A stretch of 64,000 nt of DNA, from assembly GCA_945883505.1 (NCBI GenBank), contig CAMCXL010000003.1, forward strand, positions 1 to 64,000, read 5' to 3'. Source of the stretch: Rhodoluna limnophila. GTDB lineage: Bacteria > Actinomycetota > Actinomycetes > Actinomycetales > Microbacteriaceae. Below, one piece after another: positions 2,788 to 7,207 of the stretch; the first letter of the stretch is position 1; the number at the start of each line of letters is the position of its first letter. A model generated the notes under the pieces. That model was given only the letters and a program-made list of their open reading frames with translations. It was not told the origin of the DNA and made no database searches. Made by a program: the position numbers and the translations under genes.

Positions 2788-4428
2788 TTATATTGCTCGT
2801 TCTAGAGCATCCATCCCAGCTCGCCAGGTGGTGTATCCGCCGGAGAGGTTCCTGGCCTTGATGCCGTGACCTTTTAGAAGCTGAACCGCGGTGTGTCCGC
2901 GCTGTCCAACAGCGCAGTGCACCACGATGTCTTTACCCTTGACCTCGTGAATTCTTTGTCTTAGGTCATTGACCGGAATCAACAAAGCACCCGGGATGGC
3001 ACCGGCTTCGTTCTCATCGTCGGTTCGAACATCGACAATTACTGTTCCGGACTTTTGAAGATCCTCGATCTCGTGCCACTGAACGCTCTCGGTCTTACCG
3101 GTGAAGACGTTGTCGCCGACGTATCCGGTTTGGTTGATGGCGTCCTTGGCCGAACCAAAAGCCGGCGCGTAGGCAAGTTCTAAGTTCATCAAATCTTGCA
3201 CGGTGAGCTTTGCATAAATAGCTGTTGAGATGACATCGATTCTCTTATCGATGCCGTCAAGCCCAACAGCCTGAGCTCCAAGGAGTTTTCCAGTTTTGCC
3301 ATCGAATAAGACTTTGAGCGAAACCCTTTCCGCTCCTGGGAAATAACCGGCGTGCGAGCTTGGGTGCAGGTGAATAATCTCTGCTGCGATTCCAAGTTTT
3401 TTGGCTGACTTTTCGGTAAGTCCGGTAGCCGCAATTGCCATTCCAAAAGCCCCAATGATTCCGGTTCCAATGGCAGGCTTGACCGCTACCTTTTCTCCGG
3501 CAATCACGTCGGCAACTAGCCTGCCGTGACGATTGGCTAGGTTTGCAAGCCAGATCTGCTGGCCAGCTCCTGTAAAGGAGCTGGTCTTTTCGGCTGCATC
3601 ACCGACAGCGAAGATGCTCGGGTCTGAGGTTCTCTGGTGTTGATCTACCCATATGGCTCCCGAGTCGCCTATCTGGAGTCCTGCCTCAACGGCCAGGTGG
3701 TGATCTGGAACAACACCGGCAGCTGAAACCACAAAGTCAGCCGGGATTGTTTCACCGGTAGATAGCTTGACCGAGTGCGGGCCAATTTCCTCGGCCGAAG
3801 CATTTAGCTTGAGCACAATTCCGTTTTTCTCAAGGTGTGCCTGGAAAGGCTCAATGATCTCTGGATCAAATGCTGGCAAGATGCTTGGACCCAGTTGAAC
3901 CACCGTGGTCTTCACTCCGCGGTGAATTAGGTTTTCAGCCACCTCGATACCGATAAAGCCTCCACCGAGAATGACAGCAGACTGACCTTTGAAGTTATCA
4001 ACCTGCAGTTTTAGTTTGGCGGCGTCTTCTACGTCTCGAAGGACAAAGGCGCGCTCTGCTCCGTGGATTGGTAGCGCCCTTGGCTTGGCACCGGTTGAAA
4101 TAACAAGGTTGTCGTAGGACTCGTCGTAAGAAGTGTTGTCTTGCACGTTCAGCACAGTCACGGTCTTGGCTTCTTTGTTAATTTTCGTGACTCTTGATAG
4201 CACCCGGACATCTAGATTGAAGCGGTCTTTGAGTGACTCAGGTGTTTGAAGAAGCAGGGAGGATTCTTTCGGGATGATCCCACCGACGTGATACGGCAAT
4301 CCGCAGTTGGCGAAAGAGACATTTGGACCTTGCTCGAAGATGATGATCTCGGCATTTTCTTGAAGCCTTCGAAGTCTGGTGGCAGCCGACATGCCGCCTG
4401 CGACTCCGCCGATGATTACTGTTTTCAT
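2788..4428 (-). CDS. CoA-disulfide reductase / rhodanese fusion (CoADR-Rhd)
   Basis: 546 residues. The N-terminal 440 residues form a pyridine nucleotide-disulfide oxidoreductase: the FAD site is IIGGVAGGMSAA, the NAD(P)H site is VILGGGFIGIE, and a single redox cysteine sits at C42 in SFANCGLPY, the position of the CoADR cysteine. Residues about 455-546 form a rhodanese domain with active-site loop CAVGQR (C505). Such fusions reduce CoA disulfide, CoA persulfide or polysulfide using NAD(P)H. A SD-like AGGA precedes the ATG. It lies 30 bp downstream of a CsoR-family repressor on the same strand, so the two probably form one operon. Polysulfide or persulfide detoxification is the inferred role. 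NADH oxidase activity is a possible side function. Confidence 0.92.
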   Translation of the reverse strand: MKTVIIGGVAGGMSAATRLRRLQENAEIIIFEQGPNVSFANCGLPYHVGGIIPKESSLLLQTPESLKDRFNLDVRVLSRVTKINKEAKTVTVLNVQDNTSYDESYDNLVISTGAKPRALPIHGAERAFVLRDVEDAAKLKLQVDNFKGQSAVILGGGFIGIEVAENLIHRGVKTTVVQLGPSILPAFDPEIIEPFQAHLEKNGIVLKLNASAEEIGPHSVKLSTGETIPADFVVSAAGVVPDHHLAVEAGLQIGDSGAIWVDQHQRTSDPSIFAVGDAAEKTSSFTGAGQQIWLANLANRHGRLVADVIAGEKVAVKPAIGTGIIGAFGMAIAATGLTEKSAKKLGIAAEIIHLHPSSHAGYFPGAERVSLKVLFDGKTGKLLGAQAVGLDGIDKRIDVISTAIYAKLTVQDLMNLELAYAPAFGSAKDAINQTGYVGDNVFTGKTESVQWHEIEDLQKSGTVIVDVRTDDENEAGAIPGALLIPVNDLRQRIHEVKGKDIVVHCAVGQRGHTAVQLLKGHGIKARNLSGGYTTWRAGMDALERAI

Positions 4429-4458
4429 TTTTTTCCTGGATTCTTAGAAGAAGTGGAT

Positions 4459-4716
4459 TTAGGCAAGTGACATAAAGGCTTTTTCGAGTTCTGCTCTATT
4501 GGCAGTTCCTTTGGCATCTGTTCCACACTTAGCCATGCCGGTGGCAATAATGGCAAAGCCTGCCTTGGTGAGGGCGGAGTTGGCAGCTGAGAGCTGGTTC
4601 AGAATTTCGGTGCAGTCTCTGCCCTCATCGAGCATCTTGATGACTCCGGCCAGCTGGCCATTTGCTCTAACTAGGCGGTCTCGGGCTTTTTTGAGGTCCT
4701 GGGGATCAATTTGCAT
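4459..4716 (-). CDS. CsoR/FrmR-family repressor, CstR-like (persulfide-sensing type)
   Basis: 85 residues from the ATG at 4716; the ORF-track version of 153 residues would run through the operator and the divergent gene and is rejected. The family is an all-alpha tetrameric repressor (DUF156). The two ligand cysteines are C35 (GRDCTEIL) and C64 (MAKCG), 29 residues apart. The residue four before the second cysteine is G60, where Cu-sensing CsoR has its histidine ligand. Two cysteines without that histidine is the pattern of CstR, which senses persulfides. A GTATACCC-N4-GGGTATAC palindrome lies 40 bp upstream. The neighbouring rhodaneses and CoA-disulfide reductase support a sulfur rather than copper role. 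Family assignment is firm; the inducer is inference. Confidence 0.88.
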   Translation of the reverse strand: MQIDPQDLKKARDRLVRANGQLAGVIKMLDEGRDCTEILNQLSAANSALTKAGFAIIATGMAKCGTDAKGTANRAELEKAFMSLA

Positions 4717-4756
4717 GACAAGTATCCTTTGGTTAGTTGCTGCATTATGATTTTTA

Positions 4757-4776
4757 GTATACCCTAGGGGGTATAC
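4757..4776. promoter_or_regulatory. Palindromic operator for the CstR-like repressor
   Basis: Perfect inverted repeat GTATACCC (4757-4764) and GGGTATAC (4769-4776) around TAGG. The A/T-flanked C/G-tract palindrome is the type bound by CsoR/CstR repressors. It lies between the repressor (minus strand) and the rhodanese lipoprotein (plus strand). A minus-strand -10-like TATACT (4756-4761 on plus) overlaps it, so binding could block both directions. Confidence 0.75.
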
Positions 4777-4792
4777 GAAAGGAAACACCAAA

Positions 4793-5164
4793 TTGACCAA
4801 ATTCTTCAAAATTCTTAGCGCAGCTTTCATCGCAGCAATTGCCGTGACCGGACTTACCGGTTGCGCAGCCCAGGAGCCAATCGACATGAGCCAGTACGCA
4901 GCAGTGATTGATGTTCGCACCCCGGCTGAAACCTCCGCGGGTCACCTCGACGGATCACTGTTATTTGATGTTCAGGACCCAGCCTTCATGGCGTCTCTTG
5001 AAACCTTAGACAAGTCAGCCAACTACTACATTTACTGCCGCTCAGGAAACCGCTCCGGCCAGGCAATCCAGATCATGAAAGATGCTGGCTTCACAGGTGA
5101 GCTAGCAAACGGTGGATCGCTGGCTAATGCAGCTTCTGAAACCGGTATCGCGGTAGTCAAGTAG
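4793..5164 (+). CDS. Rhodanese-domain lipoprotein
   Basis: 123 residues from a TTG start preceded by GAAAGGA at good spacing. Residues 1-23 form a signal peptide ending in the lipobox LTGC (C24), so the mature protein should be anchored to the outer face of the membrane. The rest is one rhodanese domain: YAAVIDVRTPAE at the start and the active-site loop CRSGNR with C82. Rhodaneses carry sulfane sulfur as a cysteine persulfide. It sits directly downstream of the CstR-type operator and is divergent from the repressor, which suggests induction by reactive sulfur. Its extracellular position complements the cytoplasmic CoADR-rhodanese fusion. A methyltransferase follows 7 nt after the stop. Confidence 0.88.
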   Translation: MTKFFKILSAAFIAAIAVTGLTGCAAQEPIDMSQYAAVIDVRTPAETSAGHLDGSLLFDVQDPAFMASLETLDKSANYYIYCRSGNRSGQAIQIMKDAGFTGELANGGSLANAASETGIAVVK

Positions 5165-5171
5165 TAATTCG

Positions 5172-5780
5172 ATGAACAAAGCCTTTTGGGATGAAAAGTA
5201 CTCCACAGATGAGTATGTCTATACCAAGGATGTAAACCGCTTTGTCAAAGAAAGTTTGTCCGACCTCGCCCCTGGCAAGATGATTGATCTTGCCGGGGGC
5301 GAAGGCCGTAACACGGTCTTCTTCGCCGAAAAGGGCTGGCAGGCAGAAAACGTTGACCTATCGAGCGTTGGTTTGGAAAAGTGCTTGGTGCTGGCCAAAG
5401 AGCGCGCGGTCTTAGATAAAGTCTTCACCACCCAAGCCTCAGCATTAGTTTTTGAATCCAAGCTCGCTCCAGTTGATTTGGGTGTTTGTGCCTATCTTCA
5501 GATTCCGCAGGCCGATCTTGAAGTTGCCATCACTCGCCTGGTTGAGAACATTTCGCCGGGTGGAGTTTTCTTTGGGGTGTGGCACGCACTCGAAAACCTA
5601 GAAGAAGGATTTGGGGGACCGCAGGACCCAGAGCTGTTGCCATCGACTGAGTCGATGACGGCTCTTTTATCCAAGCTCCCGCTAGAGATTTCCTTTGTCA
5701 CCAATCGCGATGGACAGGTTCAGACCAAGGAAGGTCTAAAGCCCTCGATTACCTTGACCGCTATGGCCATAAAGGTTTAG
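5172..5780 (+). CDS. Class I SAM-dependent methyltransferase
   Basis: 202 residues. Motif I is MIDLAGGEGRNTVFFAEKGW at about residues 37-56, followed by the acidic end of strand 2 (NVDLS), as in TehB- or thiopurine-methyltransferase-like Rossmann enzymes. No substrate-recognition domain is obvious, so the substrate is unknown. The ATG lies 7 nt after the rhodanese stop, so the two are almost certainly co-transcribed from the operator-controlled promoter. This raises the possibility that it methylates a sulfur compound. That is inference from position only; nothing in the sequence proves a thiol acceptor. Confidence 0.85.
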   Translation: MNKAFWDEKYSTDEYVYTKDVNRFVKESLSDLAPGKMIDLAGGEGRNTVFFAEKGWQAENVDLSSVGLEKCLVLAKERAVLDKVFTTQASALVFESKLAPVDLGVCAYLQIPQADLEVAITRLVENISPGGVFFGVWHALENLEEGFGGPQDPELLPSTESMTALLSKLPLEISFVTNRDGQVQTKEGLKPSITLTAMAIKV

Positions 5781-5800
5781 AGCAACCAAATACACTCGCC

Positions 5801-5806
5801 TAAACT
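5801..5806 (+). promoter_or_regulatory. -10 element of a leaderless promoter
   Basis: TAAACT ends 7 nt before the ATG at 5814, so transcription should begin at or next to the start codon. It sits inside the perfect inverted repeat GCCTAA-AC-TTAGGC (5798-5811), which could also be a regulator site. Confidence 0.6.
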
Positions 5807-5813
5807 TAGGCTC

Positions 5814-6077
5814 ATGCCCAAGCCCAAAAAGCCAGTTCCCCCAACACCTGGGGAAACTACCGACATGGAGGCCTACGAGCCCTTCGATGCTGAGTGGCGA
5901 AGGATTGGCCTAACGGCTCCTTCCAGGAGAGCACTGGTTGATGCCAAGCTCTATAAGGTCTCGGACCTTAGAAAACTAACCGAGTCAGAGCTTTCATCCC
6001 TTGGGGGATTGGGTAAATCAGCCGTTGCCAGGCTCAAGGTGATCATGCACGGCAAGAGAATCTCGTTTCGGCTCTAG
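5814..6077 (+). CDS. Small helix-hairpin-helix protein (RpoA-CTD-like)
   Basis: 87 residues. The first 25 are proline-rich and probably disordered (PKPKKPVPPTPGE). Residues 30-87 contain a helix-hairpin-helix unit: APSRRALVDAKLYKVSDLRKLTESELSSLGGLGKSA resembles the C-terminal domain of RNA polymerase alpha and similar DNA-binding HhH modules, with hairpin GGLGKSAVARL. A nucleic-acid-binding role is therefore likely, but the biological function is unknown. It follows the methyltransferase by 33 bp yet has its own leaderless-type promoter. The coding frame and start are well supported; the function is not. Confidence 0.75.
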   Translation: MPKPKKPVPPTPGETTDMEAYEPFDAEWRRIGLTAPSRRALVDAKLYKVSDLRKLTESELSSLGGLGKSAVARLKVIMHGKRISFRL

Positions 6078-6178
6078 TTCTAAGGGGTCTATTCCAAGCC
6101 AGTAAAGTTGAGGTTCTGCCTCTTTATTGGGTTTTTTAGGTAGTTGTATAGAGGTATCAAGAGTTTTTGGAGAAGTAA

Positions 6179-7207
6179 TTGGCTAAAAGCGTGAAGCTGG
6201 GTGTAATCCCAGGAGATGGCATCGGACCTGAGGTCACGGTTCATGCCGTTCGCGCTCTTGAGCTGGCAGCTCCAGAAGTTACATTTATAAAGACCGAGTA
6301 TGACTTTGGCGCCAAGCGCTATAACGCAACCGGTGAGGCGCTTACCGAGGCTGACTTAGTTGAGCTTTCGAAAGAAGATGTGCTGTTGCTGGGAGCCATC
6401 GGAGACCCAAGCGTTCCCTCCGGCATCTTGGAGCGGGGCTTTTTGTTGAAGCTACGCTTTGGCTTTGATCACTTTGTGAACTTGCGTCCAACCAAACTAC
6501 TTCCGGGGGTGGTATCTCCTTTGGCTAACCCTGGAGAAATTGACTTTGTGGTGGTTCGTGAGGGCACCGAGGGTTTATACCTTGGCCAGGGTGAAGTGAC
6601 CAATAAAGGAACTGCGCAGGAGACAGCAACCGAGTACTCGATCAACACCGCCTCGGGGGTTGAGCGGATTGTTCGCTACGCCTTTGAGCTAGCTTCCACC
6701 CGCGCTCGCAAGAAGCTGACTTTGGTCCATAAGCACAACGTGCTGGTTAGGGCAGGAAGCCTGTATCAGGACACCGTGAACCGAATTGCCAAGGAATACC
6801 CCAGTGTTTCCCACGATTACCTGCATATTGACGCGGCCACTATTTTTATGGTCACGGACCCTGCTCGCTTTGATGTGATTGTGACCGATAATCTATTTGG
6901 AGACATCATTACTGACCTGGCCGCCGCCATAAGCGGAGGCATCGGGTTAGCTGCAAGTGGAAACATAAACCCAACGGGGAAGTTCCCATCGATGTTTGAG
7001 CCGGTACACGGATCCGCTCCTGATATTGCAGGCCAAAACAAGGCCAACCCAACCGCAGCCATTCAATCGGCTGCAATGCTTGCCCGTCACATCGGGGAAG
7101 TTGAAGCTGCTAACCGGCTAGAAGCCGCAATAGCAACTGCACTAGCCAAAGGCCAGTCGGGTAAATCAACAACTGAGATTGCTAACGCAATCTTCGAGAA
7201 TCTTTAG
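6179..7207 (+). CDS. leuB: 3-isopropylmalate dehydrogenase
   Basis: Oxidises and decarboxylates 3-isopropylmalate to 2-ketoisocaproate with NAD+, the third step of leucine synthesis. 342 residues, typical of the actinobacterial LeuB branch. The N-terminal [12 protein letters not shown], the substrate and metal motif [15 protein letters not shown], and the NAD-site motif [13 protein letters not shown] are all present. The start is TTG at 6179 behind GGAGAAG. It opens a run leuB-ilvE-FAH on one strand, with ilvE starting 9 nt later. leuC and leuD lie separately at 13.9-15.9 kb. The 100 bp upstream carry no gene and no clear promoter. Confidence 0.96.

Follow-up and report, generated by a model that had tools for sequence, protein, structure and literature searches.

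The first 64,000 nucleotides of contig CAMCXL010000003.1 of Rhodoluna limnophila (assembly GCA_945883505.1; this whole stretch is called the window) contain a divergent four-gene locus. Leftward, it encodes a CsoR-family repressor and then a coenzyme A (CoA)-disulfide/CoA-persulfide reductase fused to a rhodanese domain (CoADR-rhodanese), and rightward a rhodanese lipoprotein and then an S-adenosylmethionine (SAM)-dependent methyltransferase (MT). We propose, with a probability of about 0.6, that persulfide de-represses both arms, that the reductase yields hydrogen sulfide (H2S), and that the MT methylates H2S. The host genome (1.22 Mb in 11 contigs, 98% complete) is Rhodoluna-near; judged by the MT sequence, the named relative closest to it is a R. 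limnophila metagenome-assembled genome (MAG; 86%). The features of the locus are the following:

2788-4428, minus strand: CoA-disulfide/CoA-persulfide reductase with C-terminal rhodanese domain, 546 residues (Pfam Pyr_redox_2, Pyr_redox_dim, Rhodanese; PDB 3icr, 8a56)
4459-4716, minus strand: CsoR/DUF156-family repressor of the CstR type, 85 residues, ATG start at 4716 (PF02583, E-value 1.3e-19, above the gathering score; structure alignments)
4757-4776, no strand: inverted repeat GTATACCC-TAGG-GGGTATAC, predicted single operator of both arms, with core ATACCCTAGGGGGTAT at 4759-4774 (ScCsoR consensus; conservation)
4793-5164, plus strand: lipid-anchored secreted single-domain rhodanese, 123 residues, TTG start (PF00581, 5.8e-10; lipobox LTGC)
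5172-5780, plus strand: class I SAM-dependent MT, 202 residues, predicted sulfide/thiol S-methyltransferase (PF03848/PF13649 region matches; AF2 model; sulfur context)

The divergent locus and its predicted operator

The arms are compact, with 30 nucleotides between the repressor and the CoADR-rhodanese genes and an MT that starts 7 nucleotides past the lipoprotein stop, and they are divided by a 76-nucleotide intergenic region (4717-4792) that contains the inverted repeat. The outer neighbours are glpK past the reductase and leuB 3' of the MT. All four genes were located where the first-pass annotation had placed them and their families agree with the Pfam and PDB comparisons, i.e., the arrangement described there is real and conserved. 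Sequence and conservation also support its reading of the parts, namely that the repressor is of the persulfide type, that the CoA-persulfide reductase is a fusion, that of the two rhodaneses one is exported and the other stays in the cytosol, and that both arms share one operator.

The repressor belongs to the CsoR/DUF156 fold family and was said to possess two cysteines and no metal-binding histidine, which is borne out by residue counts, alignments, and orthologs: it contains exactly two cysteines (C35 and C64) and no histidine, the cysteines align with those of CsoR proteins (7mq1-3, 4adz, 4m1p, and InrS), the metal-ligand histidine of InrS, S. lividans CsoR, and Geobacillus CsoR aligns with Gly60, and C35, G60, and C64 are invariant among 11 repressor orthologs. 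Among the best PDB matches are entries 7mq1-3, deposited as CsoR, which we take to be pneumococcal CstR. Moreover, the repressor gene adjoins sulfurtransferase and CoA-persulfide reductase genes, as is expected of a CstR member. Judged from these alignments, the repressor shows the di-thiol pattern shared by CstR and the sulfane-sulfur sensor ScCsoR.

The inverted repeat had been called a perfect palindrome, which holds for its 8-bp arms and not for the 4-bp spacer in its centre, which is non-palindromic. Its core is an exact fit to the ScCsoR binding site, ATACCn6GGTAT (PMC7533328), a motif that cannot tell copper sensors from persulfide sensors. With up to three mismatches allowed, chance would place 0.03 such sites in the window; the site at 4757-4776 has zero mismatches and lies far beyond chance. 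It sits between the arms in 11/11 syntenic loci (our own and 10 others), and the 16-mer core is the same in 10 of the 11 despite diverged flanks. In a set of 80 MT loci, the site was found between CsoR and lipoprotein in all 11 loci having these two adjacent; no such site was present in 24 Luna-clade loci of that set that lack CsoR and carry a rhodanese gene near the MT. Because site and repressor are gained and lost together across loci, there is strong evidence that the predicted operator belongs to the adjacent repressor. The regulon is probably limited to this locus, because among four matches to ATACCn6GGTAT in the genome the window site is the only promoter-located one. The other three were rejected as regulon members, two being intragenic and one (ATACCCCCCAGGGTAT at C10:36486-36501, L055) lying between convergent helicase-like and cytochrome P450-like genes, where it has no promoter position. 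A sigma-70 promoter scan gave no match above chance. Further CsoR-type sites (ATACCCCTAGGGGTAT / ATACCCCCTAGGGTAT) were observed 3' of ilvC at L032:2159, L033:2419, and L043:12983, the last of which lies ~230 bp upstream of serA.

The full-length PDB matches of the reductase are BaCoADR-RHD (3icr, 1e-148) and EfCoAPR (8a56, 3e-140), and both Cys42 and the rhodanese Cys505 are retained. It scores below the cut-off of the NCBIfam CoA-disulfide reductase equivalog model (TIGR03385; 462.6 vs 578.8 bits) and is therefore named after its closest solved homologs and its architecture, not as an equivalog. The lipoprotein carries Cys24 in its lipobox LTGC and an active-site loop C82-RSGNR with Cys82 as the active cysteine. 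Across the Microbacteriaceae, the CsoR-CoADR module and its operators are common, while extra rhodaneses vary.

The methyltransferase and its genomic associations

The AlphaFold model of the MT is confident and globular (pLDDT 96), and its nearest folds are Slr1183, TehB, and a mycobacterial heterocyclic-toxin methyltransferase, with a halide methyltransferase lower down; on the basis of the model, its fold neighbours are thus class I enzymes for small nucleophiles or small molecules. By sequence, the closest solved structure is Slr1183 (2kw5, 3mer, and 2n47; 2.7e-24) with ~30% identity, compared with ~15% for TehB. TehB acts on tellurite, while we know of no established sulfur role for Slr1183. 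The scores against the TPMT family (PF05724; 18.2 bits, gathering score 26) and the NCBIfam TehB model (TIGR00477; 25.8 bits, cut-off 219.5) stay below the respective thresholds. The N terminus (MNKAFWDEKY) shows no hydrophobic stretch by eye, and the protein is of a soluble type with no signal peptide. Residues invariant among 56 homologs include W6, N22, D39, G43, G45, R46, N47, G55, Y108, H138, N142, G149, and P150, and the glycine-rich motif DLAGGEG (A-x-G-x-G) is also found in close homologs.

Known H2S S-methyltransferases are MddA, MddH, and MddM1/2. Homologs of the MT in two genomes of the same class (G390 and G427) are 23-29% identical to it and carry GCGEGG motifs; they may resemble MddM1, in which case the MT would form a separate subfamily, although this is unconfirmed. 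A comparison of distributions did not relate the MT to MddM1 either way: the reported occurrence of MddM1 in 19.75% of Streptomyces fits neither the 11/150 Streptomyces genomes with the MT subfamily nor the 109/150 with the subfamily and its sister types.

A search of 200 Microbacteriaceae genomes delivered orthologs of the MT (METHYLTRANSFERASE) in 17 other genomes at 38-60% identity, and in 10 of the 17 (genera g1, g12, g13, g46, and g81) the complete divergent locus is kept. The adjacency of MT and lipoprotein, on whose conservation the first-pass annotation had staked its reading, was tested and is conserved in several aquatic genera of the family. A few individual loci deviate. In a syntenic MAG (genome G012, L042:7426-8025), the MT gene contains an in-frame TAG, which points to a possible pseudogene or an assembly error. 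Genome G013 (L141) combines CsoR, CoADR-rhodanese, lipoprotein, and operator with leuB directly after the lipoprotein, and the MT looks precisely deleted from between the latter two. Genome G010 (L147 and L034) possesses two lipoprotein copies, one together with CsoR-CoADR and an operator, the other together with an MT beside leuB and no operator.

In this family and outside of it, the MT subfamily recurs beside genes for sulfide and persulfide turnover. In the 80 named loci, sulfur genes lie within 4 kb of the MT in 46, and in the tree the sulfur-linked MTs fall into separate lineages, i.e., the Rhodoluna clade, the Aquiluna clade, Nitriliruptoraceae, and Streptomyces. The neighbours in Streptomyces and Nitriliruptoraceae are persulfide dioxygenase (PDO), sulfide:quinone oxidoreductase (SQR), rhodanese, TauE, or CsoR; in Nitriliruptoraceae the MT adjoins PDO, and the Streptomyces loci (Pfam-confirmed) are of the types rhodanese-SQR-PDO-MT and CsoR-MT. 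Plasmid loci include SQR-like/SulP/MBL/rhodanese/MT and peroxiredoxin/cydAB/MT in Paracoccus, MT/DsrE/CcdA/Trx and MT/TauE/rhodanese/SQR-like in Rhodococcus, and ArsR/SulP/MT in Arthrobacter. For Actinomycetota outside of the Microbacteriaceae, sulfur genes were found within 4 kb in 20/50 subfamily loci vs 0/30 loci of sister-type MTs, the latter from Streptomyces only (Fisher p = 2.3e-5, a value that ignores phylogeny). At L216, a locus of a Micrococcales genome, rhodanese and MT are separated directly by an operator-like site, with no CsoR in between, which speaks for the proposed circuit. The recurrent loci in unrelated bacteria strengthen the earlier suggestion of a thiol- or sulfide-capping MT. 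MT homologs also occur near cytochrome bd genes (cydA/cydAB) in L165, i.e., Paracoccus sediminicola plasmid p1 (with the peroxiredoxin), and in L239/L240; cytochrome bd is a sulfide-tolerant oxidase.

Within the Microbacteriaceae, CoADR-rhodanese is present in 18/18 genomes with an MT ortholog vs 59/182 of the remaining ones, and the two co-occur even in seven genomes where they are not adjacent. SQR or PDO was found in 0/18 MT-bearing genomes vs 44/182 of the remaining ones (p = 0.015), a significance that belongs to the union only, since with 18 genomes the absence of either SQR or PDO alone is not significant. As the MT-bearing genomes form one clade of small genomes, this co-occurrence supports a functional link and does not prove it. 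Our own genome likewise yielded no detectable SQR or PDO match. Its sole PF01507 match is CysD, followed by CysN (contig C5 around 5787-6467, L158), and no CysH was found in it, so that sulfate is probably activated and not reduced. The same holds for Pontimonas, a streamlined member of the Microbacteriaceae without phosphoadenosine phosphosulfate (PAPS) reductase and sulfite reductase (PMC6106888).

Just 3' of the MT (window positions 5814-6077) lies the gene of an 87-residue protein that weakly matches a helix-hairpin-helix and the C-terminal domain of the RNA polymerase alpha subunit; in several relatives leuB comes after the MT, with no obvious counterpart of this protein.

The proposed circuit and its alternatives

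From the anatomy of the locus and the conservation of the operator, the repressor would bind a single site and thereby repress both arms. As in CstR and ScCsoR, persulfide would modify C35/C64, which would take the repressor off the operator and allow transcription of both arms. The lipid-anchored rhodanese may handle sulfane sulfur outside of the membrane, while the cytosolic CoA-persulfide reductase-rhodanese would convert CoASSH to CoASH and H2S, a reaction known for the Enterococcus faecalis homolog. The co-transcribed MT would then use SAM to convert H2S, and perhaps methanethiol (MeSH) too, to MeSH/dimethyl sulfide (DMS), volatile products that would diffuse away as gas. We infer the inducer, the substrate, and the direction of flux. 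Since neither SQR nor PDO is detectable for the oxidation of H2S, the MT most likely methylates it, and the recurrence of the subfamily beside sulfide-detoxifying genes in other bacteria makes this substrate probable as well. A wider and more tentative proposal is that the MT represents a distinct sulfide S-methyltransferase subfamily (separate from MddA, MddH, MddM1, and MddM2) through which the sulfane-sulfur circuits of Actinomycetota and Proteobacteria may obtain a methylation arm, and that in streamlined freshwater actinobacteria it might take the place of sulfide oxidation in disposing of the H2S that the CoA-persulfide reductase (CoAPR) releases.

Several points weigh against sulfide methylation in a persulfide-controlled circuit. 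The evidence consists of sequence, context, and a model; the co-occurrence statistics ignore phylogeny and genome size, and the SQR/PDO result is confounded by small genomes. Elsewhere in the phylum, ~60% of the subfamily MTs have no sulfur neighbour within 4 kb, and several genomes carry the CsoR-CoADR-lipoprotein module without a neighbouring MT. The AxGxG motif of the MT may differ from the GxGxG reported for MddM1. Furthermore, the 24 Luna-clade loci mentioned above keep the rhodanese without CsoR and operator, which means that the MT is not always CsoR-controlled: predicted control by CsoR holds for this species and several genera; in most Rhodoluna MAGs it does not hold, and there the MT is constantly paired with a rhodanese. 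Finally, the Streptomyces loci hold SQR, PDO, and MT together, and the MT as a replacement for sulfide oxidation is thus not general.

The alternatives differ mainly in the substrate of the MT and in the purpose of the H2S. The MT may act on organic thiols or persulfides instead of H2S, e.g., by capping RSSH or a low-molecular-weight thiol to stop the spread of sulfane sulfur. The genomic association is equal for this substrate, and on Rhodococcus plasmids the MT has DsrE and thioredoxin/CcdA as neighbours, whose products act on protein persulfides; we nevertheless regard it as rather unlikely because MddM1/MddM2, actinobacterial enzymes of similar size, are inactive on CoA, Cys, and GSH (PMC12904073), nothing in the 202-residue model suggests a large substrate cap, and its nearest folds are small-nucleophile enzymes. 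A role in sulfur acquisition, in which the CoA-persulfide reductase together with the exported rhodanese would make H2S from extracellular thiosulfate or sulfane sulfur to feed cysteine synthesis, the MT venting only the excess, stays a live rival because CysD/CysN occur without CysH, sulfate reduction therefore being probably impossible here as in Pontimonas. It is unlikely, given that the persulfide-type repressor suits detoxification better, that the MT would squander scarce sulfur, and that the sister loci in Streptomyces join the MT with SQR and PDO.

Slightly more doubtful still is a TehB-like enzyme for tellurite, selenite/selenide, or halide, whose place in the locus would reflect general chalcogen or oxidant stress. 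The nearest folds (TehB among them), a weak Pfam match, and Slr1183 as the closest solved structure would fit such an enzyme, but its score lies far under the NCBIfam TehB cut-off and the recurrent neighbours are sulfide and persulfide genes, with none for tellurite or selenium. A copper-sensing repressor, with the locus serving as an operon against copper or thiol stress, is very improbable: the CsoR family and the G/C-rich CsoR-type operator are common to copper sensors, but an invariant glycine takes the place of the metal-ligand histidine, all associated genes are sulfur-transfer genes, and neither the four genes nor those directly beside them encode a copper pump or chaperone.

Relation to known systems and significance

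Like the CstR-controlled cst-like operon of E. faecalis (CstR, CoAPR, and RhdA/RhdB; PMC9405070), the Rhodoluna locus combines a di-thiol repressor, a reductase-rhodanese fusion, and separate single-domain rhodaneses; unlike that operon, it is actinobacterial, has two divergent arms on one operator, and adds an exported lipid-anchored rhodanese and an MT. With the ScCsoR circuit of S. coelicolor (CsoR, PDO, rhodanese, and sulfite transporter; PMC7533328) it shares a two-cysteine actinobacterial repressor and the operator type. There, however, persulfide is oxidised via PDO, whereas the Rhodoluna locus has a reductive CoAPR, no detected PDO/SQR, and an MT; some other Streptomyces carry the MT within an SQR-PDO-CsoR locus. 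Both the MT and MddM1 are cytosolic class I SAM methyltransferases of ~200-210 residues from Actinomycetota with the same predicted reaction, although their glycine-rich motifs may differ; the text of the MddM1 paper mentions neither rhodanese nor CsoR (PMC12904073). The actinobacterial H2S/MeSH S-methyltransferases described there, of similar size and fold class, are induced by H2S and increase H2S tolerance. In one open-access literature collection, no earlier description of an S-methyltransferase tied to rhodanese/CsoR loci was found. What appears new is the pairing of two known kinds, in which a locus of the CstR type is joined by a putative S-methyltransferase for sulfide.

The E. faecalis CoAPR, the best-studied case, makes H2S, whose fate has been called unknown (PMC9405070), and an MT that is co-encoded with an H2S-releasing reductase in a lineage without detectable sulfide oxidation offers a testable answer to this question. 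Such a test seems feasible in Rhodoluna lacicola, a close relative described as amenable to genetic editing (PMC11577799). In addition, an unassigned MT subfamily that is Actinomycetota-wide and plasmid-borne in Proteobacteria gains a specific predicted substrate. If the proposed circuit is true, common lake bacteria would be a source of methanethiol and DMS in oxic freshwater.

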